Assembly: GCA_035530055.1 (NCBI GenBank)
Contig: DATKVN010000028.1
Coordinates: forward strand, 1-32,848
Origin: a bacterium
GTDB lineage: Bacteria; UBA6262; WVXT01
Length of the DNA stretch: 32,848 nt
Reading direction: 5' to 3'
Part shown: one piece after another, positions 1,074 through 31,006 of the stretch
How positions within the stretch are numbered: the first letter of the stretch is position 1
Layout: each line of letters starts with the position of its first letter
Program-made: the position numbers and the translations under genes
The notes under the pieces: generated by a model
Database searches by the model: none
The model's input: the letters and a program-made list of their open reading frames with translations, nothing else
What the model was told of the DNA's origin: nothing

Positions 1074-1245
1074 CCCCTCACCTTATTCCTCTTGCGTGGG
1101 GTGGCTATCCGATAAATATGAAATTCTTGGTAGCCGCAACCTTTAGGTTGCGTCTCCGACGAGAAAATTTCGCAGGCTAAAGCCTGCGGCTACCTGAAAT
1201 GGAGTTATTGAGCAGTTTCCTTGAGGAGAGAGTTGGGGTGAGGGG
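1074..1245. repeat. Inverted repeat CCCCTCACC ... GGTGAGGGG enclosing a second element
   Basis: CCCCTCACC (1074-1082) and GGTGAGGGG (1237-1245) are exact inverted copies flanking most of the gap between the prepilin gene and tmk. The interior carries the GGTAGCC element of 1129-1194. The outer arms resemble the CTCTCCC/GGGAGAG palindrome at 28983-28999. The layout looks like one palindromic element that has received another, but a chance pairing of short C-rich and G-rich tracts is possible. Confidence 0.5.
1129..1194. repeat. GGTAGCC-type composite palindrome (complete, cloverleaf-like)
   Basis: Outer arms GGTAGCC (1129-1135) and GGCTACC (1188-1194) are exact inverted copies. Inside are hairpin GCAACC / loop TTTA / GGTTGC (1136-1151), a small TCTC / CGAC / GAGA hairpin (1153-1164), and hairpin GCAGGC / loop TAAA / GCCTGC (1172-1187). 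The left half and the reverse complement of the right half differ only at four stem positions, which form two compensating base pairs. The two main loops, TTTA and TAAA, are complementary. This is the clearest complete copy of this sub-family. Confidence 0.85.
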
Positions 1246-1260
1246 GTAAAAGAAAGATTT

Positions 1261-1899
1261 ATGAACAAGAGAAAGAAAAAAGGGCTTTTCATTACGCTGG
1301 AAGGACCCGATGGCTCGGGAAAGTCCACACAGTCTCTATTGCTTGCTCGCTATTTAAAGAGGAAAGGCTATAAGGTGGTGCGCACCAGGGAGCCGGGTGG
1401 GACGTCCATTGCTGAGGCTCTGCGCAGGATAATTTTGAATCCCAAAAATAGAATTTCCAAAGTTACAGAAGTCCTTCTTTATGAGGCTGGCAGGGCTCAG
1501 CATACGTCAGAACTTATTCTTCCCGCACTCCAAAAGGGTAAGATAGTGATTTGTGAACGTTATACCGACGCTACTCTTGCCTATCAAGGGTACGGACGAA
1601 AGCTGGATATTCGAATGGTTAAGGAGTTGAATCGGATTGCCTCATCTGGTTTGAAGCCCGATTTAACTATTCTTCTTGACCTCGATGTGAGAGAGGGGTT
1701 GGACAGAGCCCGAAAAGTCTCTCGGGGAAGGATGGACAGGATGGAGCAGGAGTCTATAAGGTTTCATGAGAGAGTGAGAAAAGGATATCTGGAGATTGCT
1801 TCCCGAGAGCCTGGTCGGGTTAAATTAATTAAAGTGAAGGAAACGCCGCAGAAGACACATTTAAAGGTTGTAAAAGTTATTGAAAAATTGGTAAAATAA
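1261..1899 (+). CDS. tmk: Thymidylate kinase (dTMP kinase)
   Basis: Phosphorylates dTMP to dTDP with ATP, the step that commits thymidylate to DNA synthesis. The 212-residue length is normal for the family. Visible motifs are the P-loop GPDGSGKST (15-23), the thymidylate-site REPGGT segment near 43-48, the DR(Y/H)-type motif as ERYTDATLAYQGYGR, and a LID segment with SRGRMDRME. The usual Asp of the DRY motif is Glu here, a substitution I believe occurs in other members. The ATG has only a weak purine-rich upstream site. The stop codon lies directly before the ATG of the extended holB frame. tmk beside holB, a PSP1 gene and metG is a familiar bacterial neighbourhood, which supports the call. 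Confidence 0.95.
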   Translation: MNKRKKKGLFITLEGPDGSGKSTQSLLLARYLKRKGYKVVRTREPGGTSIAEALRRIILNPKNRISKVTEVLLYEAGRAQHTSELILPALQKGKIVICERYTDATLAYQGYGRKLDIRMVKELNRIASSGLKPDLTILLDLDVREGLDRARKVSRGRMDRMEQESIRFHERVRKGYLEIASREPGRVKLIKVKETPQKTHLKVVKVIEKLVK

Positions 1900-1901
1900 A
1901 T

Positions 1902-1944
1902 GGAGGGCGACCATGGAAGGTCGCCCCTACGTGACCCGAAAGGG
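1902..1944. repeat. GGGCGACC hairpin element between tmk and holB
   Basis: GGGCGACC (1905-1912) and GGTCGCCC (1919-1926) pair around a six-base loop, followed by CCTAC (1926-1930), the CTAC end seen in other elements. A smaller CCC / GAAA / GGG hairpin follows at 1935-1944. The same GGGCGACC core recurs at 5427 and, in changed form, at 13238. The element lies wholly inside the 114-base open extension upstream of the likely holB start. Confidence 0.75.
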
Positions 1945-2013
1945 AGGTGGGGGCGTTTTACACTCCATAGAAGTGGGAATCGAGAAACCAGTCGAAGGTT
2001 AGAAAGTTTTAAG

Positions 2014-2952
2014 ATGAAGTTTTCTGAAATTGTTGGCCAGGAAGTGGCTGTTAATATATTGAAAAAGGCGATAGAGAACAACAGGTCTCATCACGCCTAC
2101 CTATTTATGGGCCCTGACGGTGTTGGTAAACGGACGACTGCCATTGCCTTTGCTAAAGGCTTGAATTGCCGCTCCTCTTCCTCAGATGGCTGCGACCTGT
2201 GCGATTCCTGTAGAAAGATTGAAAATGGAACACATCCAGATGTGGAGTTAATTGGCCCCCGTGAGGGTGGGCTGACAATTTCCATTGACCAGATTAGAAA
2301 GCTTCAGAGAAGGGTCGCCTATAAGCCACTGGAGGGAAAATGGAAAGTATATATTATAGACGATGCTGCCAGTGCTACCGAAGAGGCTGCCAATTGTCTA
2401 TTGAAGACTTTAGAGGAGCCACCTCCACAAGTAATTCTCATCCTCATCACTGAGAACATTTACCGTCTTCTCTCCACTGTTCGCTCTCGCTGCCAACTGA
2501 TACTATTCAGGCAAATTCCCCGCACTCTAATAGAAAAGATACTGACAGACCAATACGAAGTGGCGCCTGAAGAGGCACGCCCTTTGGCCAGGTTTTCTTC
2601 AGGGAGTATTGGTCGAGCGCTTTACTGTCTGGAGAAAGAGACTCCTGAGTTTGGGGAACGGTTGAGGGAGATTTTTGAAACGGGAGGTTCTCTAATTGGA
2701 GGTTACGGTAGTCTATTTCAATTTTCGGCTGAAATTCCCCGAGATAGAGAATCTACACTGGAGTTATTGAATTTTTTATTAGGGGATTTGGGCAGGAAAT
2801 TTGTGGAAAACCCATCTATACTAAAACAGAAAAAGATAGAAATCGTTATGGAAACACTCGATTTAATTAAGAGGAATGTCAATGTGAATTTAGCAATAGA
2901 TGGAATGCTGTTGAAATTGACGCAGGCTGAAGCCTGCGGCTACCAAGACTGA
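2014..2952 (+). CDS. holB: DNA polymerase III delta-prime subunit
   Basis: Clamp-loader AAA+ subunit of the replicative polymerase. The frame is open from an ATG at 1900, but the first 38 codons are translated palindromic repeat; I choose the ATG at 2014, where MKFSEIVGQE begins the usual family N-terminus (312 residues). Motifs: P-loop GPDGVGKRT (33-41), a four-Cys zinc module (Cys52, 60, 63, 66), Walker B IIDDA (114-118), the LLKTLEEPP segment (129-137) and SRC (158-160). DnaX (tau/gamma) shares these features, but the short length and the tmk neighbour favour delta-prime. The Shine-Dalgarno match is weak. The last codons (LTQAEACGYQD) run through a GCAGGC/GCCTGC repeat half-unit, so the true C-terminal tail is repeat-derived. 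Confidence 0.88.
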   Translation: MKFSEIVGQEVAVNILKKAIENNRSHHAYLFMGPDGVGKRTTAIAFAKGLNCRSSSSDGCDLCDSCRKIENGTHPDVELIGPREGGLTISIDQIRKLQRRVAYKPLEGKWKVYIIDDAASATEEAANCLLKTLEEPPPQVILILITENIYRLLSTVRSRCQLILFRQIPRTLIEKILTDQYEVAPEEARPLARFSSGSIGRALYCLEKETPEFGERLREIFETGGSLIGGYGSLFQFSAEIPRDRESTLELLNFLLGDLGRKFVENPSILKQKKIEIVMETLDLIKRNVNVNLAIDGMLLKLTQAEACGYQD

Positions 2953-3016
2953 TATGATCTGGTAGTCGCAACCTTTAGGTTGCGTTTTATACACCCCATA
3001 AATCGGGGCGGCTACC
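2921..3016. repeat. GGTAGCC-type half-units overlapping the holB 3' end
   Basis: A right half-unit GCAGGC / TGAA / GCCTGC with GGCTACC (2922-2944) lies inside the last codons of holB. A left half-unit follows: GGTAG (2961-2965) with GCAACC / TTTA / GGTTGC (2968-2983). Then a CCCC (2994-2997) / GGGG (3005-3008) hairpin and a closing GGCTACC (3010-3016). The order right-then-left is opposite to the complete element at 1129-1194, so these are two elements end to end, the first truncated. Confidence 0.8.
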
Positions 3017-3049
3017 GGGTTATATGCCATTTTTTAAAAGGAGAAGAAT

Positions 3050-3880
3050 ATGCCCATTGTTGTGGGAGTTCAGATAAGAAGAACAAAGGATATTTTCGAT
3101 TTCCTGCCAGAGGGAATAGACCTGGCTATAGGTGATAAGTGTTTGGTGGAGACAGAGAATGGGATGGAAGCGGGAGAAGTTGTCTCGCCGGAGAGAATGA
3201 TTGAACACAGTAAGAAGAAGCTTTATCGGGTAATAAAAAAGATGGACTCTGGTGATTGTGAAGTGGTAAAGAGAAATGTTAGTAAGGAAAAAGAAGCATT
3301 TCAAAAGGTAATGCAGAAAGTAGAAGAACACGAATTAAAGATGAAATTGACCTGCGTGGATTATACTTTTGATTGCAACAAATTGTTTGTCTATTATACT
3401 GCAGAAGGAAGAGTGGATTTCCGTGAACTCATTAAAGACCTGGGGTACCTGTTGAAAACTCGCATACAGATGGTTCAGATTGGGGTGCGGGACGAGGCTA
3501 AGATGCTGGGTGGATTTGGACCATGCGGACTTCCCATCTGCTGTGGCTCATTTTTGAAAAATTTTAGGCCTGTTTCCATTGATATGGCTAAAGAGCAGGA
3601 CTTATCCTTGAACCCGGCAAAGATTTCCGGAGTTTGTGGTCGATTGATGTGTTGTCTGGCATATGAGAACGATTTTTATCGTGAAGAGAGAAAGAACTTC
3701 CCTAAAATAAATTCCAAAGTGGCTACTGAGGATGGAATAGGAGTGGTTAAAGAAGTCAATATTTTACGGGGAGAAGTCACTGTTGAATATGGGGATGGAA
3801 TATCGAAGAAGTTGCCTCGAAAGGAAGTATCCCCGGCAGGATTTTTTGAGAAGTTCAAATTTAAAAAATCAGAAAGTTAA
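3050..3880 (+). CDS. PSP1 domain protein, RicT/YaaT family
   Basis: A 276-residue member of the PSP1 family. The family signature is complete: GPCGLPICC (157-165), then a segment reading M-A-K-E-Q-x-L-S-L-N-P-x-K-I-S-G, then VCGRLMCCLAYE (195-206), giving Cys159, 164, 165, 196, 201 and 202. In Bacillus subtilis the homologue RicT forms a complex with RicA and RicF that carries iron-sulfur clusters and affects RNase Y-dependent RNA maturation; that is established for Firmicutes only. No ricA or ricF partner is visible here, so the role in this bacterium is unknown. AAAGGAGAA (3037-3045) fixes the ATG. It sits 8 bases upstream of metG, so the two are probably co-transcribed, as they are near each other in many genomes. 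Confidence 0.9.
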   Translation: MPIVVGVQIRRTKDIFDFLPEGIDLAIGDKCLVETENGMEAGEVVSPERMIEHSKKKLYRVIKKMDSGDCEVVKRNVSKEKEAFQKVMQKVEEHELKMKLTCVDYTFDCNKLFVYYTAEGRVDFRELIKDLGYLLKTRIQMVQIGVRDEAKMLGGFGPCGLPICCGSFLKNFRPVSIDMAKEQDLSLNPAKISGVCGRLMCCLAYENDFYREERKNFPKINSKVATEDGIGVVKEVNILRGEVTVEYGDGISKKLPRKEVSPAGFFEKFKFKKSES

Positions 3881-3888
3881 AAATTTCT

Positions 3889-5418
3889 ATGGCTAAGAAA
3901 TTCTATATCACCACTCCCATATTTTATGTGAATGACCTACTGCATATCGGACACGCCTACTGCACCATAGCTTGTGATGTGGTGGCCCGCTTCAAGCGCT
4001 GGCTGGGGGATGAAGTTCTGTTTCTTACTGGTACTGATGAACATGGACAGAAGATAGCCCAGGCAGCCAGTTTGAAAGGTAAGACGCCTTTAGAATGGGC
4101 AGATTATATCGTTTCCGAGGACAAAAAACTCTGGGAGAAGCTGAACATTTCTCACGATGATTTTATCAGAACAACAGAAGAGCGACACGAAAGGACAGTG
4201 CAGGAAATTTTTACAAAACTTTACCGGAAAGGGGATATCTATAAAGGAGAGTATGAGGGATGGTATTGTACTTCCTGTGAGACTTTCTATCTGGAGTCAC
4301 AGCTTGAGCAAGGTAAGTGCCCTGAATGTGGGAAAGTGACAGAGAAACTGAAAGAAGAGAGTTACTTCTTTAAACTATCTAAATATCAGAAGAGACTTCT
4401 CAATTATTTTGATGAGAATCCTGAGTTCATGCAGCCTCCCTTCCGCAAAGCGGAAATGGTAAATTTTGTTAAGGGAGGACTGAGGGATTTGAGCGTGAGC
4501 CGCACGGCTGTGAAGTGGGGAATACCAGTTCCTTTTGATGAAAAACATACTGTTTATGTCTGGCTTGATGCTCTGATAAATTACCTCACTGCCTGTGGAT
4601 ATTTAGAGGATAAAGTAAAGTTTGAAAAGTTCTGGCCTGCTGATGTTCATCTGGTGGGTAAGGAGATTTTCAAGTTCCACACCATCATCTGGCCGGCAAT
4701 ATTGATGGCTCTGGAGATACCTCTTCCCAAAAAGGTTTTTGGGCATGGCTGGTGGACTGTGGAGGGAAAGAAGATGTCCAAATCTCGAGGGAATGTGGTT
4801 GATCCGGTTGAAGTTTCTGAGGAGTTTGGGGTGGACGCATTCCGTTACTTCCTGATGAGAGAGGTGCCCTTTGGTCAGGATGGCGATTTTTCCAAAAAAG
4901 CACTTATCAGACGCTATAATGCTGATTTGGCGAATAATTTAGGTAACCTTCTGAGTCGTAGCCTGACAATGGTGGAAAAGTATGTTGAGGGCAGGGTGCC
5001 TGAACCGGGTGGAGAGGAGAAAGAGGATAAAGAGTTAATTCAAAAAGCGAAGGGACTTTTTGAAAGAGTCATCAAATATTACGATAAGCTGGAATTGAAC
5101 AGTGTCCTGGGAGCTATTTGGGAAGTTATCGATTATGCTAATAGATACATTGAAAGGACAGCTCCCTGGAAGTTGGAAAAGACTGATAGAAAGAGACTGG
5201 AAACTGTGTTATATAATCTTTTAGAGACTTTGAGAGTAGTCACTTTCTATATTCTTCCTTTTATGCCCCAGACAGCGGAAAGAATCTGGGAGCGATTGGG
5301 GATGGAAGAGAAAATCTATAATCAGAAAATTGAAGAAGCACAGTGGGGAAGGCTCAAGTCAGGGACAAAGATTAAAGCAGGCAAGCCTTTATTTCCCAGG
5401 ATATATAATGGAGTGTAA
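3889..5418 (+). CDS. metG: Methionyl-tRNA synthetase, short form
   Basis: Class I synthetase charging tRNA-Met. Visible motifs: FYVNDLLHIGH with HIGH at 19-22, TGTDEHG (48-53 region), a single zinc knuckle with Cys127/130 and Cys144/147, and KMSKS at 295-299 followed by RGN. The anticodon-binding helical domain fills ~340-500. At 509 residues the protein ends there, without the C-terminal EMAP/Trbp111-like tRNA-binding dimerisation domain found in longer MetG; this is a recognised short architecture. The start is 8 bases after the PSP1 gene stop with only a weak AGAAAG-type site, suggesting translational coupling. A palindromic element begins within five bases of the stop. Confidence 0.96.
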   Translation: MAKKFYITTPIFYVNDLLHIGHAYCTIACDVVARFKRWLGDEVLFLTGTDEHGQKIAQAASLKGKTPLEWADYIVSEDKKLWEKLNISHDDFIRTTEERHERTVQEIFTKLYRKGDIYKGEYEGWYCTSCETFYLESQLEQGKCPECGKVTEKLKEESYFFKLSKYQKRLLNYFDENPEFMQPPFRKAEMVNFVKGGLRDLSVSRTAVKWGIPVPFDEKHTVYVWLDALINYLTACGYLEDKVKFEKFWPADVHLVGKEIFKFHTIIWPAILMALEIPLPKKVFGHGWWTVEGKKMSKSRGNVVDPVEVSEEFGVDAFRYFLMREVPFGQDGDFSKKALIRRYNADLANNLGNLLSRSLTMVEKYVEGRVPEPGGEEKEDKELIQKAKGLFERVIKYYDKLELNSVLGAIWEVIDYANRYIERTAPWKLEKTDRKRLETVLYNLLETLRVVTFYILPFMPQTAERIWERLGMEEKIYNQKIEEAQWGRLKSGTKIKAGKPLFPRIYNGV

Positions 5419-5423
5419 TCGCG

Positions 5424-5473
5424 TAGGGGCGACCTTTATGGTCGCCCGACTACCAGTCAAACTTTCGTTTGAC
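5424..5473. repeat. Double hairpin element downstream of metG
   Basis: GTAG (5423-5426 region) leads into GGGCGACC (5427-5434) pairing with GGTCGCCC (5440-5447), then CTAC (5449-5452 region), then GTCAAAC (5456-5462) / TTTC / GTTTGAC (5467-5473). The first hairpin shares its stem with the element at 1905 but has a different loop; the TTTC loop of the second is also the loop of the hairpins at 9619 and 25494. No T-run follows, so it is a poor intrinsic terminator. Confidence 0.75.
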
Positions 5474-5513
5474 ACTCCTATGGGGGAAAAGATAAAGGTG
5501 AGGGAGAGTGTCA

Positions 5514-6647
5514 ATGATTGGGGTAATCTCTGATGACTTGACTGGGTGTGGCGATGTGGGATTACATTTTGCAGATTATGGTTTGAGAACAATTGTCCAT
5601 ACTTCTAACTCAGAGCGCCTCTGCAAAAATCTGAAGCCTGATGTTGACTGGGACGTTCTTGTGGTGAATACTGAAAGCAGGTTAGATGAACCGCAAACAG
5701 CCTACGAGAAGGTTAAAGGTGTCTTGAGATTTTTCAGGAAATTAAACATAGAACGGATTTATAAAAAAATAGATTCTACGTTACGGGGAAATGTCGGTGC
5801 GGAGATTGACGCGCTTTTCGATGAGTTGAACATAGAAAAACTTCCTTTTTGTGCTGCTTTTCCCAAAACAGGAAGGACTACAATAGAAGGTTACCACTAT
5901 GTCTGGGGAAAACTGGTTACCAAAACGGAGTTTGCTCGTGACCCCAGGAATCCAGTTAATGAAGCTCACATACCCACTTTGCTGGAAGAAACATCGAAAC
6001 ATTCTGAAAGGATTAAAGTATATAATGCAAAGACTCAAAGAGATTTAAAAAATATCGCCAGAGAAATCCCGGATTACACGACTGTATGTGGAGCAAGCGC
6101 TCTGGCCGGGGAGTTGGTCAAATTCTGGGGGAAGGCGGGATCAAGCAGGGATGTTAAACCTAAGACAGTAACTGGTGGTTCAAAACCTGTGTTGATTATT
6201 TCCGGGAGTGGACAATCGGTTACCTACGAACAGATTGGAGAGTTGAAGAGAAAGAAAAGTTTATTGGCTGTGCCTATAGATTTCGAGCGAAATCGAGTGG
6301 AAATACCGGATGCGAAAAATGCTAAACACATATTAATCTATCCTCAAAAGAGTAACCACAAACTCGATGCAGAGAAGATTATTAGAACGATTGTCTATTT
6401 GACCACAGGACTTTGCAAAGGGGGATTCTTTCGTAATCTAATTCTTATTGGTGGAGATACTGCTTTCAATATCTGTCGAGCATTAAAGATAGAGACCTTT
6501 CAAATTATTTCGGCTGTATCACCGGGGATTGCTTTCTGTCGGACTTTAGATGGGAAGTACAACTTCATTCTGAAGCCGGGAGGGTTTGGGGACAAGGAAA
6601 CATTGATTAGATGTGTGCAATTTTTTGGCCATAGTAGGTCTTCGTAG
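5514..6647 (+). CDS. Four-carbon acid sugar kinase family protein (DUF1537/OtnK-like)
   Basis: Family members phosphorylate four-carbon acid sugars such as erythronate or threonate derivatives. The N-terminal SDDLTGCGD (6-14) matches the family's (A/S)DDLTGAxD motif, followed by a segment with KKIDSTLRGNVGAE that is also conserved. The C-terminal nucleotide-binding half has GGDTA (313-317) and VSPGIAF, then LKPGGFGDKETL near the end. At 377 residues it is slightly shorter than usual. I prefer ATG 5514, 7 bases after GGGAG (5502-5506), over the GTG at 5508. No dehydrogenase, aldolase or isomerase of a tetronate pathway is adjacent, so the substrate is unknown. Its closeness to the repeat downstream of metG leaves operon membership unclear. 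Confidence 0.85.
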   Translation: MIGVISDDLTGCGDVGLHFADYGLRTIVHTSNSERLCKNLKPDVDWDVLVVNTESRLDEPQTAYEKVKGVLRFFRKLNIERIYKKIDSTLRGNVGAEIDALFDELNIEKLPFCAAFPKTGRTTIEGYHYVWGKLVTKTEFARDPRNPVNEAHIPTLLEETSKHSERIKVYNAKTQRDLKNIAREIPDYTTVCGASALAGELVKFWGKAGSSRDVKPKTVTGGSKPVLIISGSGQSVTYEQIGELKRKKSLLAVPIDFERNRVEIPDAKNAKHILIYPQKSNHKLDAEKIIRTIVYLTTGLCKGGFFRNLILIGGDTAFNICRALKIETFQIISAVSPGIAFCRTLDGKYNFILKPGGFGDKETLIRCVQFFGHSRSS

Positions 6648-6747
6648 TTATTTGGCTTACTCCTGGCAGAGGCCATCTCACAACTTTCCGGATAGGTATT
6701 CCCTCCAGCATTTTCAGCCACCCTTTTCCCTTGGACGAGAGAGGGAG

Positions 6748-6770
6748 AAAAAGTAGCCTGTCCCCTTTTT
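6748..6770. repeat. Degenerate copy of the GGTGCCTGTCACC palindrome
   Basis: An A5 run, a GC-rich centre and a T5 run match the palindrome at 29007-29026 at about 20 of 23 positions when aligned by eye. The pairing is damaged here. It lies in the 215-base gap 6648-6862; the rest of that gap before the promoter at 6797 shows nothing I recognise. Confidence 0.45.
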
Positions 6771-6796
6771 CGCAGGAATTTCCCTCTTTCTTGTAC

Positions 6797-6826
6797 TTTA
6801 CAATTTAAAATAATATTTAGTATAAT
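6797..6826 (+). promoter_or_regulatory. Sigma-70-like promoter for the GH57-like lipoprotein gene
   Basis: TTTACA (6797-6802) and a perfect TATAAT (6821-6826) are separated by 18 bases in an AT-rich tract, 37 bases upstream of the ATG at 6863. The gap upstream is the largest in this half of the window, which supports an independent transcript starting here. Sequence match only. Confidence 0.6.
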
Positions 6827-6862
6827 AAAAGACTGTCTATTACAAAAGGCGAATTTTAAAAA

Positions 6863-9514: not shown

Positions 9515-9522
9515 TGCAGATT

Positions 9523-9544
9523 GTAGGCACGGTTTTAACCGTGC
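9523..9544. repeat. GTAG-GCACGGTT hairpin
   Basis: GTAG (9523-9526) followed by GCACGGTT / TT / AACCGTGC (9527-9544). The identical hairpin with the same GTAG lead recurs at 22698-22719, 13 kb away, in front of the first foldase gene. Here it sits 12 bases after the GH57-like gene stop, without a T-run. Confidence 0.8.
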
Positions 9545-9554
9545 AAAATTGGCT

Positions 9555-9639
9555 GGAGTCCTCCCGAAAGGGAGGGATGATAGACGGAATCTCCGACTAA
9601 TCGGAAGAGTCCAGTCAACCTTGCTTTCGCAAGGACTCC
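9555..9639. repeat. GGAGTCC-type composite palindrome with three inner hairpins
   Basis: Outer arms GGAGTCC (9555-9561) and GGACTCC (9633-9639). Inner hairpins: CCTCCC / GAAA / GGGAGG (9560-9575), CCGA / CTAA / TCGG (9593-9604), and CCTTGC / TTTC / GCAAGG (9619-9634). The left and right loops GAAA and TTTC are complementary. The right half is identical to the right half of the element at 25463; the left stem differs from that one by compensating changes (CCTCCC against CCGCCC). Confidence 0.85.
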
Positions 9640-9681
9640 ACATTATTATCTTTTAAATATGAGTAAAGGAGGGTGAGGAAA

Positions 9682-13205: not shown

Positions 13206-13207
13206 AT

Positions 13208-13322
13208 GTAGCTGCAGAGCGAAGCTCTGCATTGTAGGGGCGACACTCCGTGGTCGCCCAAAGGAAGGGACGGCACAGAGTCCGTCCCCTACAGACAGGC
13301 AAAGCTTGCGCTTTGCTGCTAC
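13208..13322. repeat. GTAGC ... GCTAC composite element with four hairpins
   Basis: GTAGC (13208-13212) and GCTAC (13318-13322) are inverted ends. Inside, in order: GCAGAGC / GAA / GCTCTGC (13214-13230); GGGCGAC pairing with GTCGCCC (13238-13259) after a GTAGG lead; GGGACGG / CACAGAGT / CCGTCCC (13267-13288) followed by CTAC; and GCAAAGC / TTGC / GCTTTGC (13299-13316). The first and last stems differ by one compensating pair (GCAGAGC against GCAAAGC). Much of the element is read as open frame upstream of the helicase start. Confidence 0.85.
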
Positions 13323-13369
13323 AAATCTTGCTGATGCGAGTGGTTACGAAAAAAAGGAGTTCTGGTTTT

Positions 13370-15553: not shown

Positions 15554-15570
15554 AAGAGAAGAGAGGGGAA

Positions 15571-15855: not shown

Positions 15856-15884
15856 AATTAAAAGATAGTTTGTTCATCGTTTAG

Positions 15885-15960
15885 GTAGTGTAGGGCTTTA
15901 TGCCCGTAATGGTTTTGGTCTTGCCCACGTGAAAATTACGCCCATAAAGGGCTACACTAC
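15885..15960. repeat. GTAGTGTA-type composite palindrome (complete)
   Basis: Left half-unit (15885-15909): arm GTAGTGTA, hairpin GGGC / TTTAT / GCCC, then GTAA. Right half-unit (15936-15960) is inverted: TTAC, hairpin GCCC / ATAAA / GGGC, TACACTAC. Read in the same direction, the two halves have identical arms and loops but GGGC/GCCC in one and GCCC/GGGC in the other, two swapped base pairs. A 26-base spacer separates them. It fills most of the gap between gatC and the next gene. Confidence 0.88.
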
Positions 15961-15975
15961 AATTAAGGGGAAAGA

Positions 15976-17810: not shown

Positions 17811-17812
17811 GG

Positions 17813-17835
17813 AAAAAGGTGACTGTCACCTTTTT
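17813..17835. repeat. A5-GGTGAC / GTCACC-T5 palindrome between gatA and gatB
   Basis: AAAAAGGTGAC and GTCACCTTTTT (11 bases each) are exact inverted copies around a single T. With its T5 tail it could act as an intrinsic terminator or attenuator in either direction, but the one-base centre means a real hairpin would open one or two pairs. It overlaps the beginning of the gatB Shine-Dalgarno region (TGGAGTGG at 17835). Related copies: 29007-29026 and a decayed one at 6748. Confidence 0.7.
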
Positions 17836-17846
17836 GGAGTGGATGA

Positions 17847-19289: not shown

Positions 19290-19291
19290 AT

Positions 19292-19347
19292 GTAGAGGTT
19301 TGATTTATCAAATCCGCAGAAAGGGGCTCAATAAATTGAGCCCCTAC
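19292..19347. repeat. GTAG ... CTAC element downstream of gatB
   Basis: GTAG (19292-19295) and CTAC (19344-19347) bracket two hairpins: TTTGA / TTTA / TCAAA (19299-19312) and GGGGCTCAAT / AA / ATTGAGCCCC (19323-19344). The TTTA loop is shared with the GGTAGCC elements. The second is the longest perfect stem in the window. No T-run follows; the next ~80 bases (19348-19429) show nothing I recognise. Confidence 0.8.
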
Positions 19348-19429
19348 ATATCATTAGAATTAGAAGAAGAGGTTAAGACTCAATCCTCCTCCATAAGATA
19401 ATCCGCCAATCTCCATTAGTCGCTTCTTG

Positions 19430-19482
19430 GTAGTGTAGGGCTTTATGCCCGTAAAAATTACGTCCATGAAGGGCTACACTAC
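19430..19482. repeat. GTAGTGTA-type composite palindrome upstream of mfd
   Basis: Left half 19430-19454 (GTAGTGTA, GGGC / TTTAT / GCCC, GTAA) is identical to the left halves at 15885 and 30885. The right half (19458-19482) is a variant with loop ATGAA in place of ATAAA and one stem mismatch. Only three bases separate the halves. An open frame begins inside the element at 19445 and continues into mfd. Confidence 0.85.
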
Positions 19483-19489
19483 CTATAGA

Positions 19490-19511
19490 ATATTGACTCT
19501 GACCCCTTTTT
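19490..19511. repeat. TTGACTCTGACCCC-T5 motif upstream of mfd
   Basis: A short sequence ending in CCCCTTTTT, directly after the composite palindrome and 14 bases before the mfd ATG. From memory, its reverse complement (A5-GGGGTCAGAGTCAA) is a sequence seen in many unrelated bacterial genomes next to REP-type repeats or IS200/Y1-like transposase genes. I cannot check that here, and no such gene is in the window. Confidence 0.4.
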
Positions 19512-19525
19512 CACGGAATAGACTT

Positions 19526-22669: not shown

Positions 22670-22680
22670 TCTGATATAAT
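22652..22680 (+). promoter_or_regulatory. Sigma-70-like promoter for the foldase/mla operon
   Basis: TTGCAA (22652-22657), 17 bases, then a perfect TATAAT (22675-22680); a second TATAAT lies at 22665-22670. It overlaps the mfd stop. Transcription would begin near 22687-22690, placing the GCACGGTT hairpin (22702-22719) and the AAAGGAG site in a short leader. Sequence match only. Confidence 0.6.
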
Positions 22681-22697
22681 TAATTACTTAGCACTTT

Positions 22698-22719
22698 GTA
22701 GGCACGGTTTTAACCGTGC
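22698..22719. repeat. GTAG-GCACGGTT hairpin in the leader of the foldase operon
   Basis: GTAG, then GCACGGTT / TT / AACCGTGC (22702-22719), identical to 9523-9544. The AAAGGAG ribosome-binding site begins two bases after the hairpin (22721-22727), so a folded hairpin would abut the site where the 30S subunit loads. Confidence 0.8.
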
Positions 22720-22732
22720 AAAAGGAGATGTG

Positions 22733-24629: not shown

Positions 24630-24655
24630 GGTTAGGTGAGAAAGCGGAGAGTAGA

Positions 24656-25447
24656 TTGTTGAGATACGTAGGTAAGGGAATTTTAGATGCAACCAGTGGC
24701 TTGGGTCGGATAACAGGATTATTCCGCCAGATAATCTACTGGACTGGTCGTCGCCCGCTGAGGAGTAAGGACATTGTAAGTCAGATGATGGAGATTGGAG
24801 TAAGGTCGTTTCCAGTAATTGGACTTACTGCTCTGTTTACGGGTATGGTTTTAGCTTTACAGACTGGCTATGCTTTCAGCAATTTTTTTGGTGAGCCTGT
24901 GTATGTGGGAATGGCTGTTGGATTTTCTATGGTTAAGGAATTGGGTCCAGTTATGTGCTCTGTGGTTTTAGCTGGTAGAGTTGGTGCAGCGATAGCGGCT
25001 GAGATTGGGACAATGAAGGTTACAGAGCAGATAGATGCTCTGTATACTCTGGGCACAAATCCTGTAAAGTATTTAGCAGTCCCCAAGTTTTTGGCCTGTC
25101 TGATTATAGTTCCCATCCTTACCCTGTTAGCAGATATTATTGGTGTTTTAGGCGGACTCTTGGTTAGCGTCTATTCGTTTAATATTCCAGCAGCCGTTTA
25201 TCGAGATGAGATTCTGAATTTTATGCGGATTGATGATGTGTACCATGGTCTAATAAAATCTCTCTTTTTTGCCGTAATAATTATTATGGTCTGTTGTTAT
25301 AAGGGATTCACCTGCGAAGGTGGAGCGCAAGGTGTGGGGAGAGCAACTACTTCGGCGGTAGTAACTTCTTTGGTCTTGATTTTAATTTCAGACTACTTCT
25401 TGACGGCCTTTCTGGTCTCCATTGGAATTGGTGCCACCCATTTTTAA
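24656..25447 (+). CDS. mlaE: MlaE-family ABC transporter permease
   Basis: 263-residue permease of the retrograde/anterograde phospholipid (Mla) or related MCE transporter at the inner membrane. Five or so hydrophobic segments; the MlaE signature is clear: MVKELGPVM (92-100), the LAGRVGAAIAAEIGTMK stretch (105-121) and TEQIDALYTLGTNP (123-136). Start is TTG 24656, supported by GGAG (24646-24649) 6 bases upstream and by full alignment of the N-terminal amphipathic helix (GLFRQIIYW). It follows the SurA-like gene by 26 bases and precedes mlaF across a GGAGTCC element. Confidence 0.93.
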   Translation: MLRYVGKGILDATSGLGRITGLFRQIIYWTGRRPLRSKDIVSQMMEIGVRSFPVIGLTALFTGMVLALQTGYAFSNFFGEPVYVGMAVGFSMVKELGPVMCSVVLAGRVGAAIAAEIGTMKVTEQIDALYTLGTNPVKYLAVPKFLACLIIVPILTLLADIIGVLGGLLVSVYSFNIPAAVYRDEILNFMRIDDVYHGLIKSLFFAVIIIMVCCYKGFTCEGGAQGVGRATTSAVVTSLVLILISDYFLTAFLVSIGIGATHF

Positions 25448-25462
25448 AATGTAGAAAGGTCT

Positions 25463-25543
25463 GGAGTCCGCCCGAAAGGGCGGTATGTAATTTCCTTGCT
25501 TTCGCAAGGACTCCATGTTTTTGGAGTCCGCCCGAAAGGGCGG
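25463..25543. repeat. GGAGTCC-type composite palindrome plus an extra left half
   Basis: Complete element 25463-25514: arm GGAGTCC, hairpin CCGCCC / GAAA / GGGCGG (to 25483), hairpin CCTTGC / TTTC / GCAAGG (25494-25509), closing GGACTCC (25508-25514). A second left half (25523-25543) is an exact 21-base copy of the first and stops 12 bases before the mlaF ATG. The loops GAAA and TTTC are complementary. It separates mlaE from mlaF within what must be one operon, so it does not obviously end transcription. Confidence 0.88.
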
Positions 25544-25555
25544 ATGAGTTGAAAT

Positions 25556-26311
25556 ATGATAAGGATTAACAATATCCATAAGAGCTTTTTAGGGAATAGA
25601 GTTCTACGGGGAGTGAACCTGGAAATAAAAGAAGGAGAGACAATTACCATAATAGGTGGGAGTGGCTGTGGGAAGAGCGTCCTTTTAAAACATATTGTGG
25701 GGCTCATGAAGCCAGAAGTTGGTGAAATCGAAATAGATGGTCAAGAAATCACCAGGTTGGGAATGGAGGAATTGGCTGAGGTTCAAAAGAAATTCGGTAT
25801 GCTCTTTCAGGGAGCTGCTCTATTCGATTCTTTAACAGTAGGAGAAAACATATCTTTTGGTTTGCGTATGTTAACCGATTTGGATGAGAAAGAGATAAAA
25901 AGGAGAGTTTCCGAAAAGCTTCCTCTGGTCGGCATGGAAGGGATTGAACAGCTAATGCCTGCTGAACTTTCTGGAGGAATGAAGAAGAGAGTGGCGCTTG
26001 CCCGGGCAATTGCTATGAATCCCAAGTATATTCTTTACGATGAACCCTCAACTGGCCTTGACCCAATTATGGCCGATGTAATTAATAATTTAATCTTAAA
26101 TTTACAAGAGAAACTAAACATAACTTCTATTGTTGTCACTCACGATATGGTTACTGCCTACAAGGTTTCCGATCGGATTGCCATGCTTTACCAGGGCCGG
26201 ATAGAAGAGATAGGAACGCCGGAAGAAATAAAAGAGACGAAAAATCCTGTGGTGAGACAGTTTATTACTGGCTCAAGTGAGGGGCCTATAAAGATGAAGT
26301 TAAAGGAGTAG
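25556..26311 (+). CDS. mlaF: MlaF-family ABC transporter ATP-binding protein
   Basis: 251-residue ATPase that drives the MlaE permease. Motifs in order: Walker A GGSGCGKS (34-41), Q-loop in MLFQGAALFDSLTV, signature LSGGMKKRVALARA, Walker B YILYDEPSTGLDP, and the switch His in VVTHDM. The MKKRVALARA form of the signature is characteristic of the MlaF group. The ATG lacks a clear Shine-Dalgarno site and lies 12 bases after a repeated hairpin, so translation may rely on a structured leader. It ends four bases before the mlaD ATG. Confidence 0.95.
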   Translation: MIRINNIHKSFLGNRVLRGVNLEIKEGETITIIGGSGCGKSVLLKHIVGLMKPEVGEIEIDGQEITRLGMEELAEVQKKFGMLFQGAALFDSLTVGENISFGLRMLTDLDEKEIKRRVSEKLPLVGMEGIEQLMPAELSGGMKKRVALARAIAMNPKYILYDEPSTGLDPIMADVINNLILNLQEKLNITSIVVTHDMVTAYKVSDRIAMLYQGRIEEIGTPEEIKETKNPVVRQFITGSSEGPIKMKLKE

Positions 26312-26315
26312 ATTG

Positions 26316-27581
26316 ATGTTAACTCAGGAGACAAAAGTAGGGCTTTTTGTTCTGTGTGGTCTTGTAGCTTTGGTAATAGTGACTGTTCTTCTTGGCGATA
26401 TCCATTTGGGAAAGCGGTATAAAATAAAAATCATTTTCAACGATGTTAGTGGGCTTCCGGAAAAAGCCCAGGTAAGAAGAGCAGGAGTGGTCGTAGGAAA
26501 AGTTACAGATATCAGACTGGTTGGGGATAAAGCTCAAGTGGCTGCTTTCATAAAAAAGGATGTGAGAATCCATAAGGACGCACGGGCGAGGATTGTCTCT
26601 TTCGGGATTGTGGGCACGAAGTATCTGGAAATTACTTCTGGTTCAGAAGAAGAGCCACTCCTCGAGGACGGGGATACTATTATAGGTATTGACCCTGTTA
26701 GTATTGAGAGGGCTGTGGAAAAAGTCTTACTTGGCGTGGGAGGTCTGGTGGAGGAGATAAAAGGGGTTGGTAAAGAAGAGGAATTGGGCAAGTCTCTGAG
26801 AGTATTTTTGGATAATATTGGAGAGGTCACCCGGAAATTGAATAGAGCTCTGGGCACTGAAGGACAGGAGTTAGAGGAGACAATTAAGAATCTTAACCAA
26901 CTCTCAGCTAATATAAGGGAAATAACCGATAGTTTAAATCAGAAAAGTATCATCAGTTCCCTGCAAAAGCTTGACAGAAGCCTGGATGAAATCGCCGAAG
27001 TTGCAGAAAAGCTCAATAAAGGGGAAGGAGCAATGGGAAGGCTTTTGACTGATGAAAAGATGGGCGAACAAATTGAAGAAATGGTAGAAAGTCTCCAGGA
27101 GAGTTCTGAACAGGCTAAGAAGATTTTGCAGAGGACATCTGGTTTGAGAACGGCATGGGAATACCAGTTAAATTATAATGTAAATGAGGAGAAACTCAGA
27201 AGTGACTTTGGTCTTTCCTTGATTCCTGGCAAGGAAAGGTTTTACTACTTTTCAGTAAACAATATTGGAGAAAGTAACAGAGACACCGATTCGGGTGAAC
27301 AGAAAATAAATAGTATAACTGTGAAGGTAGGAAAAAATTTAGGACTGTTCTCTCTATATGGCGGGGTTATTCGCTCCAGTGGTGGTTTTGGTGGAGCTTT
27401 CTGGCCAATTAAAGACAGAATAGAAATTGATGCAGAAGTTTTCCGCTTTTCCAGAGAAAGAGCCTGGCTCAATGCCGGAACGAGGTTCAGGATAAACGAT
27501 TGGTGCTATCTTAGAATAAATGGTGAGGATATATTGAATCAGGGCACGGTCAATAGCAGTATAGGTGTTGTTTTAAAGTGA
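26316..27581 (+). CDS. mlaD: MlaD/MCE-domain protein with long C-terminal extension
   Basis: 421 residues. One membrane helix (~8-27) is followed by a single MCE domain (~36-117: FNDVSGLPEKAQVRRAGVVVG and the LEDGDTIIG end), the substrate-binding part of the transporter. A long helical/coiled-coil region (~125-270) contains heptad-like LNQLSANIREITDSLNQ and RSLDEIAEVAEKLNK. The last ~145 residues (from about 278) alternate polar and aromatic residues (YYFSVNNIGE, GLFSLYGGVIRSSGGFGGAFW, INDWCYLRINGED, SSIGVVLK) and look like a beta barrel or beta-rich sheet. ATG 26316 is 7 bases from GGAG (26305-26308); the TTG at 26313 is less likely. The usual Escherichia coli MlaD is only ~180 residues. Confidence 0.9.
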   Translation: MLTQETKVGLFVLCGLVALVIVTVLLGDIHLGKRYKIKIIFNDVSGLPEKAQVRRAGVVVGKVTDIRLVGDKAQVAAFIKKDVRIHKDARARIVSFGIVGTKYLEITSGSEEEPLLEDGDTIIGIDPVSIERAVEKVLLGVGGLVEEIKGVGKEEELGKSLRVFLDNIGEVTRKLNRALGTEGQELEETIKNLNQLSANIREITDSLNQKSIISSLQKLDRSLDEIAEVAEKLNKGEGAMGRLLTDEKMGEQIEEMVESLQESSEQAKKILQRTSGLRTAWEYQLNYNVNEEKLRSDFGLSLIPGKERFYYFSVNNIGESNRDTDSGEQKINSITVKVGKNLGLFSLYGGVIRSSGGFGGAFWPIKDRIEIDAEVFRFSRERAWLNAGTRFRINDWCYLRINGEDILNQGTVNSSIGVVLK

Positions 27582-27588
27582 GGTAACA

Positions 27589-28956
27589 TTGGCAAAAGTA
27601 AAGACGGCCTTTATTTGTCAGGAATGCGGATATCAGTCCGCCCGCTGGCTGGGCAAGTGTCCTACTTGTGGGAAGTGGAACAGTTTAGTTGAAGAGAGAT
27701 TAGATATAGATATTAGCTTGAGGGAAGAACGCACCCTTTCCACAGCAAAGCCGAGTCCAATCAGTTCTATCAAACCTCAGCCTGAGGAGAGGTTTCTCAC
27801 AGGAATATCAGAGTTCGATCATGTTTTAGGTGGAGGAGTTGTGGCTGGCTCGCTTGTCCTGTTAGCTGGTTCTCCTGGTATCGGCAAATCGACTCTGCTT
27901 TTACAGGTGGCGGGAAGTCTGGCAGTTTCCGGAAAAAAATGCTTATACATCTCTGGAGAGGAGTCTTTGGAACAGATAAAGTTGCGAGCTGACAGGTTGA
28001 GGATAGATTCTCCGGAATTGATAATATTCTCTGAGACAAATATTAAAGAGATAATTAACCAGATTAAAGAGATTAAACCGAAATTTGTAATTATCGATTC
28101 AATTCAAACGGTTTACCATGATGGTTTTAGTGGTTCACCAGGAAGTGTGGGCCAGGTTAAACAGTGCACTGATGAACTCTTTTATTTAGCCAAGTCCAAA
28201 AGGATTCCCGTATTCATTTCGGGACAGATTACTAAAGAGGGAGCAATTGCCGGCCCAAAAGTTTTAGAGCATATTGTGGATACAGTTCTTTATTTTGAAG
28301 GGTCTAAGGATCACTTATATAGGATTTTGAGGGTGGAGAAAAATCGGTATGGTACTACCTCGGAAATTAGCATCTTTGAGATGAAAAGCGATGGATTGCA
28401 ACAGGTATTAAATCCCTCACAGATTTTTCTGGAGGGACGCATTCCCACTGCGGGGACAGTTGTCGTAGCACCTTTAGAGGGAACTAGACCCCTTTTAGTT
28501 GAACTACAGGCTTTAGTCACAAGAGCAAATTTTAACCTACCCAGGCGACAAGCCAGTGGTTTAGACTACAATAGGATACTTCTCTTGGTAGCGGTACTGG
28601 AGAAAAATTTTAATCTCCATCTGGAAAATTGTGATATCTTCTTGAATATCGCCGGAGGCGTGAAAATTTACGAACCTGCCTGTGACCTGGGCGTTATAGC
28701 GGCTATCTATTCAGGAGTGAAGAATAGACCTATTGGTGAGGAGGTAATGGTTATTGGTGAAGTTGGTTTGGTAGGTGAGGTGCGGGGAGTGACTTTTGTT
28801 GAAAAAAGGGTAAGCGAGGCGGAAAAGTTAGGCTTCAAAACCTGCATACTACCCAGTAATAACCTGAAAGAATTCCACGAGAAGAGAAAAATAGATTTAA
28901 TTGGTGTGTCTACAGTTAATGAGGCTATTGAAAAACTGCATCTCGGGCGGGCTTGA
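27589..28956 (+). CDS. radA: DNA repair protein RadA (Sms)
   Basis: 455-residue branch-migration helicase of homologous recombination. N-terminal C4 zinc finger (Cys10, 13, 24, 27), RecA-like core with Walker A GSPGIGKST (94-102) and Walker B KFVIIDS (165-171), the RadA-specific motif as KNRYG (251-255; KNRFG in the type proteins), and a C-terminal Lon-protease-like domain without the catalytic Ser/Lys pair (GGVKIYEPACDLGVIAAI). Start is TTG 27589: the zinc finger requires it, and GAGGT overlapping the mlaD stop is a plausible ribosome-binding site. The tight spacing suggests it is read with the mla genes although the functions differ. Confidence 0.95.
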   Translation: MAKVKTAFICQECGYQSARWLGKCPTCGKWNSLVEERLDIDISLREERTLSTAKPSPISSIKPQPEERFLTGISEFDHVLGGGVVAGSLVLLAGSPGIGKSTLLLQVAGSLAVSGKKCLYISGEESLEQIKLRADRLRIDSPELIIFSETNIKEIINQIKEIKPKFVIIDSIQTVYHDGFSGSPGSVGQVKQCTDELFYLAKSKRIPVFISGQITKEGAIAGPKVLEHIVDTVLYFEGSKDHLYRILRVEKNRYGTTSEISIFEMKSDGLQQVLNPSQIFLEGRIPTAGTVVVAPLEGTRPLLVELQALVTRANFNLPRRQASGLDYNRILLLVAVLEKNFNLHLENCDIFLNIAGGVKIYEPACDLGVIAAIYSGVKNRPIGEEVMVIGEVGLVGEVRGVTFVEKRVSEAEKLGFKTCILPSNNLKEFHEKRKIDLIGVSTVNEAIEKLHLGRA

Positions 28957-28982
28957 GGGTCTTTTTGGCAATCCCTAACCCT

Positions 28983-28999
28983 CTCTCCCAAGGGGAGAG
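28983..28999. repeat. CTCTCCC / GGGAGAG palindrome
   Basis: CTCTCCC (28983-28989), AAG, GGGAGAG (28993-28999), preceded by CCCTAACC. It is 27 bases after the radA stop. This G/C-rich hairpin type is, to my knowledge, widespread between bacterial genes; it resembles the outer arms at 1074 and 1237. Confidence 0.65.
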
Positions 29000-29006
29000 G
29001 AGGGAA

Positions 29007-29030
29007 AAAAGGTGCCTGTCACCTTTTCTT
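29007..29030 (+). terminator. Terminator-like GGTGCCTGTCACC palindrome after radA
   Basis: AAAAGGTG and CACCTTTT (29007-29026) are inverted copies around CCTGT, followed by CTTT. The T-rich tail and position 50 bases past radA make it a plausible rho-independent terminator, but the stem is short. It is a member of the same palindrome group as 17813-17835, where an identical type lies inside an operon, so termination is not certain. Confidence 0.45.
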
Positions 29031-29033
29031 TGA

Positions 29034-29057
29034 GGTAGTCGACGGCTTTAGCCGGCG
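29034..29057. repeat. GGTAGTC half-unit with TTTA loop
   Basis: Arm GGTAGTC (29034-29040), stem ACGGC pairing with GCCGG/GCCG around loop TTTA (29047-29050), extended by CG/CG across one A-G mismatch. Same arm and loop as the left halves at 1129 and 2961, but with an unrelated stem sequence, and with no right half nearby. Confidence 0.7.
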
Positions 29058-29113
29058 TATGGAGAGTAGAATATTTAATTATAGAGAAGCAAAAGACGAG
29101 GAGGTGAAAATTA

Positions 29114-30097
29114 TTGTTTATCTGGATTGTTCGCTTATTAGTTATTATTGCTGGGCCAATCATTGGTTATTTTCAGATTTCTCCAGGGGCTAAGGGTATT
29201 CTAATCGGAACGGGTGCTGCAATTTTGATTATCCTTGTAGAGATACTTATTGAAAAAGTTGCCCTGGATACAATGGTAGCTGGTGGTATTGGAATAATCC
29301 TGGGATTAATTGCTGCCAAACTCATTGACTATTCGGTAGCATTGATGGGGAATCCATCTGTGGATACATTCTTTAAATCGTATTCTCTGTTAACAAAAGT
29401 TGTGCTTGCTTATATCGGAATGCTCCTGGCTATTAAAAAGAAAGAGGAATTAGAACTTCTGGATAAGAACATCACCCTTTCCAGTAAGCGAAAAGGTGGT
29501 GCGATGATGAAGGTCATCGACACCAGCGCCTTAATTGATGGTAGGATTATTGATATCTGCGAGACCAAATTTTTAGAAGGAACTCTGGTAATCCCCAATT
29601 TCGTTTTGAAAGAACTGCAAGAAATTTCTGATTCACCAGACTCTTCAAAGAGAAACCTGGGTAGGAGGGGACTCGACGTTTTAAAGAGACTCCAGGAGAC
29701 TAAACAGGTCACAGTAAAGATTTTTGAGAAAGATTATCCTAAAATTGAAGAAGTAGATGCAAAGATAATAAAATTGGCTGATGAATTGGATGCCAGGATT
29801 ATGACTGCCGACTTCAACTTAAACAAAGTTGCAGCGGTGCAGGGAATTGCTGTTTTGAATGTCAACGAACTGTCCAACGCAATTAAACCGCCAGTTCTGC
29901 CTGGCGAGGCAATGAAGGTCTTCGTTTTAAAAGAGGGAAAAGAGCCTAAACAGGGAGTGGCTTATCTTGATGATGGAACGATGGTGGTAATTGAAGATGG
30001 AAGGAGATATATCGGCAGAAAAGTTGACGTAATGGTAAACAGCATTTTACAAACTGCCGCCGGACGGATGATATTTGCCCGCCTTGTGGAAGAATGA
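29114..30097 (+). CDS. Membrane-anchored PIN and TRAM domain protein (YacL-like)
   Basis: 327 residues. Four hydrophobic segments (about 4-22, 28-46, 54-75, 92-107) are followed by a PIN nuclease-like domain (~131-255): VIDTSALIDGRI with Asp136 and Asp142, the LVIPNFVLKELQ segment with the second acidic site, and ARIMTADFNLNKVA with the third. A TRAM domain ends the protein (~258-327). This is the architecture of Bacillus YacL and homologues; a nucleic-acid-directed role is inferred for the family but not settled. The TTG start 29114 is backed by a very strong GGAGGTGA (29100-29107). It is 31 bases upstream of ispD, a neighbourhood common in many bacteria. Confidence 0.9.
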   Translation: MFIWIVRLLVIIAGPIIGYFQISPGAKGILIGTGAAILIILVEILIEKVALDTMVAGGIGIILGLIAAKLIDYSVALMGNPSVDTFFKSYSLLTKVVLAYIGMLLAIKKKEELELLDKNITLSSKRKGGAMMKVIDTSALIDGRIIDICETKFLEGTLVIPNFVLKELQEISDSPDSSKRNLGRRGLDVLKRLQETKQVTVKIFEKDYPKIEEVDAKIIKLADELDARIMTADFNLNKVAAVQGIAVLNVNELSNAIKPPVLPGEAMKVFVLKEGKEPKQGVAYLDDGTMVVIEDGRRYIGRKVDVMVNSILQTAAGRMIFARLVEE

Positions 30098-30127
30098 ACA
30101 GACGATTTATGAGAGGAGAGGTAACCT

Positions 30128-30820
30128 TTGAAAGTAGTAGCAATTATTGTTGCTGCTGGCAGTGGAAAAAGGATGGGACGTTCAACAAAGAAACAGTTCC
30201 TCTCTATCGGCTCTAAACCAATTCTGGCATATACTCTCGATGTATTTGACTCAATAAATAGAGTTGACAGGATAATTTTGGTTATCCCCAGAGGTTGGAA
30301 AAGGTATTGTCAGAAGGAAATTATAGAGAAGTACGGATATAAGAAAGAGATAGAGTTGACTAGTGGAGGAGCGCGGCGACAGGACTCGGTGGCTTGTGGA
30401 CTTGCTCTTGTGTCTTCGGATTATGAGATAGTAATTATTCATGATGGAGTGAGGCCGTTTGTCACCAGAAGGATGATAATTGAATCTATTGCCAAAGCAA
30501 GGAAATTTGGAGCCTGCGTTGTCGCCGTTCCTGTGAGTGATACTGTCAAAATGGCAAACAGTAGAGGCGTTATAGAAAGAACGCTTCCTCGTGAATGTCT
30601 CTGGAGAGTTCAGACTCCACAAACGTTCCGGCTCAGTTTGATTAAGAAAGCTTATGCTAAAGCCCTGAAAGACAGATTTTATGGCACTGACGATGCTCAG
30701 TTGGTGGAAAGAATGAATAAACCAGTAAAAGTTATCTCCGGTGACTACCGTAACATAAAAATTACCACTAAAGAAGACCTGATCCTTGCTGAAAGGATAT
30801 TATCAAAAAAGCCATTCTAG
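30128..30820 (+). CDS. ispD: 2-C-methyl-D-erythritol 4-phosphate cytidylyltransferase
   Basis: Third step of the non-mevalonate isoprenoid pathway: couples MEP and CTP to CDP-ME. 230 residues. Visible: IIVAAGSGKRMG (6-17) nucleotide loop, Lys22 in TKKQF, GGARRQDSVACGL, HDGVRPFV, the VPVSDTVKMA region, RVQTPQTFR, a TDDAQLVER segment and GDYRNIKITTKEDL near the end, all standard for IspD. Start is TTG 30128 with GGAGAGGT about 5 bases upstream. It is separated from ispF by a nested pair of palindromic elements. Confidence 0.95.
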   Translation: MKVVAIIVAAGSGKRMGRSTKKQFLSIGSKPILAYTLDVFDSINRVDRIILVIPRGWKRYCQKEIIEKYGYKKEIELTSGGARRQDSVACGLALVSSDYEIVIIHDGVRPFVTRRMIIESIAKARKFGACVVAVPVSDTVKMANSRGVIERTLPRECLWRVQTPQTFRLSLIKKAYAKALKDRFYGTDDAQLVERMNKPVKVISGDYRNIKITTKEDLILAERILSKKPF

Positions 30821-30827
30821 CCTTTGT

Positions 30828-31006
30828 GTAGCCGCAGAGCGAAGCTCTGCTTTGATTTAGGGGCTTGTCCCCGTCCTGTTTTTGGTAGTGTAGGGCTTTA
30901 TGCCCGTAATCTTTTTTGTAGTGTAGGGGCTTGTCCCCGTAAGTTTACGCCCATAAAGGGTACACTACGGATAGACAAAAATTACGCCCATAAAGGGCTA
31001 CACTAC
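30828..31006. repeat. Nested GTAGTGTA-type elements between ispD and ispF
   Basis: In order: a GTAGCC-led hairpin GCAGAGC / GAA / GCTCTGC (30834-30850, same as 13214-13230); GGGG / CTTGT / CCCC (30860-30872); left half L1 (30885-30909); left half L2 (30918-30942) whose stem is GGGG/CCCC with loop CTTGT; right half R1 (30945-30968, one base shorter than the standard right half); right half R2 (30982-31006). L2-R1 form an inner element inside L1-R2. A 62-codon open frame through here is repeat translation, not a gene. Confidence 0.88.

Follow-up and report, generated by a model that had tools for sequence, protein, structure and literature searches.

Several REP families with GTAG or GGAG feet, probably copied by RAYT transposases, in an uncultured bacterial genome

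The intergenic hairpins of a 32,848-nucleotide contig (DATKVN010000028.1, here C28), which was analysed at full length and is called the window below, are repetitive extragenic palindromes (REPs): a four-base foot is followed by a short hairpin, and the elements lie between genes, mostly as inverted pairs. The window comes from a UBA6262 bacterium (assembly GCA_035530055.1; 1,678,755 bases, 106 contigs, 96% complete), whose GatB reaches just 62-64% identity with its best matches in named genomes. Our results make it very probable that these REPs form several GTAG- or GGAG-footed families of few master stem types, arranged mostly as inverted A/B pairs and copied by RAYT, a Y1 HuH transposase, which amplifies only the foldable versions.

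A scan of the window for GTAG or GGAG tags followed, after 0-3 nt, by a stem of at least 6 bp yielded 19 hairpins scoring 17 or more, against a mean of 1.0 and a maximum of 5 in 30 dinucleotide shuffles, and GTAG ranked first by hairpin number among all 256 tetranucleotide tags. Genome-wide copies were counted by searching the genome of the window with one pattern per family and, as a control, with each pattern reversed; the inner stem was left free, so that pairing there was not imposed by the search. Family F1 (GTAGNCG..TTNA..CG) gave 77 matches (control 2), F2 (GGAGTCC..GANA..GG) 162 (control 0), F3 (GGAGTAGC..CTTG..GC), which the initial annotation of the window had not listed, 138 (control 0), F4 (GTAGGG..CCC) 165 (control 28, ~137 net) and F5 (GTAGTGTA..) 94 (control 0), which together amount to ~600 net copies. 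Such high copy numbers are typical of REPs, as is the position of the window's copies in gene gaps or at gene ends. F1, with a stem of 8 bp and a 2-nt loop, falls within the definition of Quentin et al. 2018 (PMC6006769), which asks for a fully paired basal stem of 7-20 bp and a loop of 2-5 nt. A GTAG or GTGG foot stands 0-2 nt 5' of the stem in F1 (GTAG in 36/37 copies) and in F5 (13/13).

The half-units described in the initial annotation (GGTAGCC with TTTA, GGAGTCC with GAAA, and the GTAGTGTA sets) were all found at the positions given there, and so was the base-paired variation of their stems: across 34 distinct F1 sequences, some of them from other genomes, 96.7% of cells pair, and the covariation score is 0.406 against 0.136 after shuffling, with 0/500 shuffles as high. 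It had also stated that every change in a stem is matched on the other side. Most pairing does hold, but GACGGC/GCCGGC at 29035 carries an A-G mismatch, a form present in 3 copies genome-wide. Nor do the stems vary freely, as had been proposed, since each family consists of a few fixed types genome-wide. In the window's genome, F1 comprises GCAGGC (30) and GCAACC (29), all others being found at most 4 times, and F5 comprises GCCC (43), GGGC (24) and GGGG (17). For F2 and F3, stem types and pairings refer throughout to the matches listed (the first 100 of each for the stem types); these include TCCC (58) and TTGC (29) in F2, and GAAA (45), AGAG (29), ACCG (9) and GAGA (8) in F3. When the four families are taken together, 15 of the 16 types seen at least three times are perfectly Watson-Crick, and 24 of the 29 seen once or twice contain a mismatch or wobble. 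This contrast indicates that the amplified lineages are the ones that carry paired variation and that the changes in decaying single copies go uncompensated, and it tells elements that must fold to be copied from elements kept folded at each site. A single conserved stem with unpaired mutations had been named as the outcome that would speak against a role for folding: the rare variants are indeed mostly unpaired, but each family has several fixed stems and covariation exceeds that of shuffles. The proposal that the folded form matters is upheld, and single-stranded DNA is a good candidate for that form.

Inverted neighbours, defined as lying within 130 bp, make up 127 pairs in four families, as in bacterial interspersed mosaic elements (BIMEs) and REPINs, and 127/127 join two different stems. 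The counts are 29/29 in F1 (mean with permuted stem labels 20.0; P < 1/5000), 29/29 in F2 (16.4; P < 1/5000), 39/39 in F3 (26.9; P < 1/5000) and 30/30 in F5 (20.5). Pairing in F3 follows two classes, GAAA or GAGA being joined to AGAG, ACCG or AGAC and never to a member of their own class; direct neighbours in F2 and F3 mostly repeat one type. Because several dimers have spacers in common, the dimer is probably a copied unit. Descent of one asymmetric dimer would give this rule. It would equally be given by the removal of long perfect hairpins, which Di Nocera et al. 2013 (PMC3733652) suggested; they also describe families composed solely of heterodimers. Computed energies of long DNA hairpins, at -28 to -37.5 kcal/mol for artificial homodimers versus -13 to -23 for real pairs, fit the published idea of removal by SbcCD-type enzymes, but single descent would explain the rule equally.

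The initial annotation also proposed recombination between hairpins; the stem types would then have come from recombination, or from an exchange of arms, within a shared pool. Some dimers do enclose a hairpin that belongs to another family, and loops of the related genome G003 do hold an extra nested hairpin. Nevertheless, this origin is highly improbable, given that few paired positions separate the stem types, that recombined forms, for instance ACCG/CTCT, occur just once each and that the A and B classes never mix; nor is it needed, as amplification of fixed A/B dimers followed by decay explains the data.

The genome also encodes candidates for the copying enzyme. The initial annotation had advised a search for a Y1/RAYT transposase, and eight Y1_Tnp genes (PF01797, above the curated cut-off) are present, three of them flanked by REPs on both sides: L006 sits inside an F2 array, L007 lies between F3 A/B dimers and L004 between copies of a GTAG REP, GTAGGGACAGAC..GTCTGTCC. 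RAYT genes flanked by REPs of their own family also occur in G003 (L181 and L182) and in the distant genome G141 (L214). The flanks of L181 carry GGAGTAGCAGACT and GGAGTAGCAGGTT hairpins, which are GGAG REPs, and those of L182 carry GTAGGCACGGTT and GTAGGCACAGAT hairpins (GTAGGCAC REPs), the GTAGGCACGGTT repeat being found in the window at 9523 and 22698. A reader that recognises loop and arm had been postulated; a Y1/RAYT-type enzyme indifferent to the exact stem is the likely one, and RAYT genes are flanked here by the same hairpins. The distant genomes G141, G120 and G070 contain F1-flanked RAYTs, with F1 on both sides in G141, and these belong to a single clade (100/99). F1 with the same stem types is found in G120 (148), G069 (105), G091 (33) and G070 (32), as well as in a named Aerophobetes contig (L082), yet it is not shared with the same-order genomes G004 and G005, which suggests horizontal spread along with its RAYT.

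Integron attC sites likewise fold as hairpins from a single strand, and their unpaired features are conserved while their stems vary. It is barely conceivable, however, that the repeats are recombination sites of this kind, recognised by structure and read by a tyrosine recombinase: the same hairpins flank Y1 genes, and the copies lie singly or in pairs among housekeeping genes, with no cassette array seen in the window (an integrase was not searched for). A reading as miniature inverted-repeat transposable elements was also considered and ranked low.

Comparison with related genomes points to mobility. Over gatA-gatB and mfd, the same-genus genomes G001 and G003 are ~97% identical to the window and G002 ~87%; gene order is collinear in all three and the spacers differ. 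Orthologous spacers at 87-97% identity mostly hold other REPs or none. The F1 pair before tmk is replaced by a different GGAG-footed set in G003 and has no counterpart in G002, the REP sets of the mlaE-mlaF spacer differ from genome to genome, and the gatB-mfd pairs of the window are absent in G001, G002 and G003. A few sites persist. The mfd-prs REP is kept in G001 and G003, with an alteration in G001 that is not compensated, and an F1-like copy with one unpaired position (29035-29057, +; CGACGGCT-TT-AGCCGGCG) occupies the same site in G002 and G003, mismatch included. As most shared gaps hold different REPs or none, the elements move. If instead an RNA function, such as termination, mRNA end protection or regulation, preserved each hairpin where it stands, compensatory mutations would arise in place. 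The hairpins do fold and do lie between co-directional genes, and roles of such kind have been proposed for REPs (PMC3733652). This explanation is nonetheless very unlikely: hairpins are absent from orthologous spacers of close species or swapped there for unrelated families, the mfd-prs copy of G001 changed without compensation, rare stem variants are mostly unpaired and Rfam gave no match. Hairpins that persist at orthologous sites with paired substitutions would have spoken for it, and their absence here speaks against it.

The feet of F2 and F3 set these families apart. GGAG is found in 27/37 copies of F2, with GTAG in 0, and in 27/29 copies of F3; the F3 foot, GGAGTAG, overlaps a GTAG and is ambiguous when taken alone, and the F2 counts support GGAG. 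RAYTs with GGAG feet group together (78/82), the four closest members at 100/99. No match to the GGAG foot or to these repeat sequences was found in the literature searched, a nil result that is weak. We tentatively suggest, at somewhat less than even odds, that GGAG-footed REPs form a distinct group with a RAYT clade of its own as reader, present in this genus and in one or more distant genomes, and that the copied unit in this lineage is an obligatorily asymmetric pair, in which one stem class forms the left end of a minimal transposon and the other its right end. What is modestly new is the tie of GGAG-footed REPs to one RAYT clade, a REP family common to distant lineages, and strict two-class pairing in an uncultured lineage.

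Several points weigh against RAYT-copied REPs. F2 and F3 depart from the GTAG/GTGG foot, and the stem of F5 is irregular, with a bulge, in deviation from the rule of Quentin et al. An F1-flanked RAYT was sought in the window's genome and none was found, L008 being without a REP and L003 having a single distant one. Transposition, moreover, is deduced from position and turnover. L003 was considered as the F1 RAYT on account of its one upstream REP and was dropped, because most RAYTs of its long type have no REPs at their flanks in other genomes and F1-flanked RAYTs belong to another clade.

The reading of the repeats as RAYT-copied REPs is directly supported by their anatomy and copy numbers, by the RAYT genes with the same REPs at their flanks, by the association of RAYT clades with REPs and by the turnover between close species. 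As far as sequences can indicate, RAYT would recognise the unpaired foot together with the folded single-stranded hairpin, cleave there and copy the element or pair to new sites. Stem types would differ by paired changes since folding would be needed for amplification, and an inserted copy would then decay via ordinary unpaired mutation.

The other copies in the window are as follows. F1 copies of class A lie at 1130-1152 (+; GTAG-N-CGCAACCT-TT-AGGTTGCG) and 2962-2984 (+), and the first is the partner of a class B copy at 1171-1193 (-; CGCAGGCT-TT-AGCCTGCG); all three were found by the hairpin scan and the F1 pattern. Another class B copy, with the loop TTCA (TC), at 2921-2943 (-), overlaps the 3' end of a holB-like open reading frame (1900-2952), whose last codons (2921-2952) are apparently provided by the REP. 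Some F1 dimers elsewhere (L037, L030 and L017; spacers 32-38 nt) hold between their arms a GGAGTAGCAGACTTTAGTCTGCG hairpin resembling one beside L181, which indicates that REPs insert into REPs. F4 is represented by a single copy at 1905-1930 (-; GTAG-GGGCGACC-TTCCAT-GGTCGCCC; scan and F4 pattern), by partners at 13234-13259 (+; GTAGGGGCGACACTCCGTGGTCGCCC) and 13267-13292 (-; GTAGGGGACGGACTCTGTGCCGTCCC), both from the F4 pattern, and by a 'double foot' copy with GTAG at both ends at 5423-5453 (no strand assigned; scan). The counterparts of the first three in G003 (L199, L200) have an extra hairpin nested in the loop, e.g. CCCGATGTATCGGG; REP loops may serve as sites of insertion, or may have lost part of their length.

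F2 copies found by both scan and F2 pattern lie at 9555-9575 (+; GGAGTCC-TCCC-GAAA-GGGA-GG, class A) and 9619-9639 (-; TTGC/GCAA, class B), and the F2 pattern located a further class B copy of the latter type at 25494-25514 (-) between class A copies with GCCC/GGGC at 25463-25483 and 25523-25543 (both +). The F5 pattern identified GTAGTGTA-GGGC-TTTAT-GCCC-GTA at 15885-15908 (+) with a GCCC/GGGC partner at 15937-15960 (-), GGGC/GCCC copies at 19430-19453 and 30885-30908 (both +), GGGG/CCCC at 30918-30941 (+) and GCCC/GGGC at 30983-31006 (-); a decayed partner (GTCCATGAAGGGC) lies at 19458-19483 (-) and a copy with a one-base deletion (GTAGTGTACCCTTTATGGGCGTA) at 30946-30968 (-). The hairpin scan also gave GTAGC-TGCAGAGC-GAA-GCTCTGCA (13208-13231, +), GTAGCA-GCAAAGC-GCAA-GCTTTGC (13299-13322, -), GTAGA-GGTTTGAT-TT-ATCAAATC (19292-19314, +), GTAGCC-GCAGAGC-GAA-GCTCTGC (30828-30850, +) and, together with the F4 pattern search, GTAG-GGGCTCAAT-TT-ATTGAGCCC (19324-19347, -). 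The family with the REP-flanked RAYT L182 is present as GTAG-GCACGGTT-TT-AACCGTGC at 9523-9544 (+) and at 22698-22719 (+), a site that is also occupied in G001 and G003, and a GGAG-footed hairpin, GTCAAAC-GAAA-GTTTGAC (5456-5478, -), recurs in the tmk spacer of G003. A second kind of palindrome without a GTAG foot, AAAAAGGTGMCTGTCACCTTTTT, is seen at 17814-17835 and 29006-29027, and more weakly at 6748; it has 4 matches in the window against 0.03 expected, its sites are conserved in sister genomes, and it resembles a terminator or a further family of repeats.

Paired stem changes are not without precedent, contrary to the initial statement that the stem sequence is usually retained in known REPs. 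Nunvar et al. 2010 (PMC2817692) observed that modified REPs in BIMEs retain the palindrome, 'suggesting selection for complementary mutations', and the legend to Figure 1 of Di Nocera et al. (PMC3733652) marks stem changes that are complementary. With the GTAG-tagged REPs of the latter study and with BIMEs, the window's repeats share an unpaired foot, a short GC-rich stem, a tiny loop, intergenic position, inverted dimers, several families per genome, paired stem changes and, in many families, a preference for heterodimers; here, in contrast, the foot is GGAG in two families, four families within a single genome form heterodimers exclusively, and the host lineage is outside those listed. E. 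coli Y and Z REPs and Enterobacterial GTAG-3 dimers also join only two different REP types, although the Y and Z types differ mainly by loop length and ours by stem sequence. The REPINs of Pseudomonas (Bertels and Rainey 2011, PMC3116915) are similar in that the copied unit appears to be the dimer together with its spacer and that compensatory changes were noted, but those REPINs are symmetrical, whereas the two arms always differ here. As in the RAYT/TnpA_REP 'REPtrons' (PMC2817692, PMC6006769, PMC8266576), a short Y1 HuH transposase gene is flanked by its own REPs, and recognition does not depend on every base of the upper stem and loop; Corneloup et al. 2021 (PMC8266576) found that E. coli TnpA_REP binds and cleaves despite a swapped loop or upper stem. 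GT[AG]G is the sole foot mentioned in those studies, while a RAYT clade here goes with GGAG. Quentin et al. also reported subclass-specific REPs and double-foot REPs, like that at 5423-5453. The Y1 subclasses that they describe as lacking REPs match the long RAYTs here.

Taken together, the finding is a new occurrence of known REP/RAYT biology, with a possible GGAG variant. It extends this biology to a sparsely sampled uncultured lineage, in which several REP families and RAYTs are found together in one small genome, and it suggests a foot able to change from GTAG to GGAG along with the RAYT clade. Di Nocera et al. noted a preference for heterodimers that is unexplained, and the strict pairing of different stems in 127/127 inverted neighbours of four families provides a clean statistical case of it; the coexisting families make the matching of RAYTs to REPs testable within one cell.

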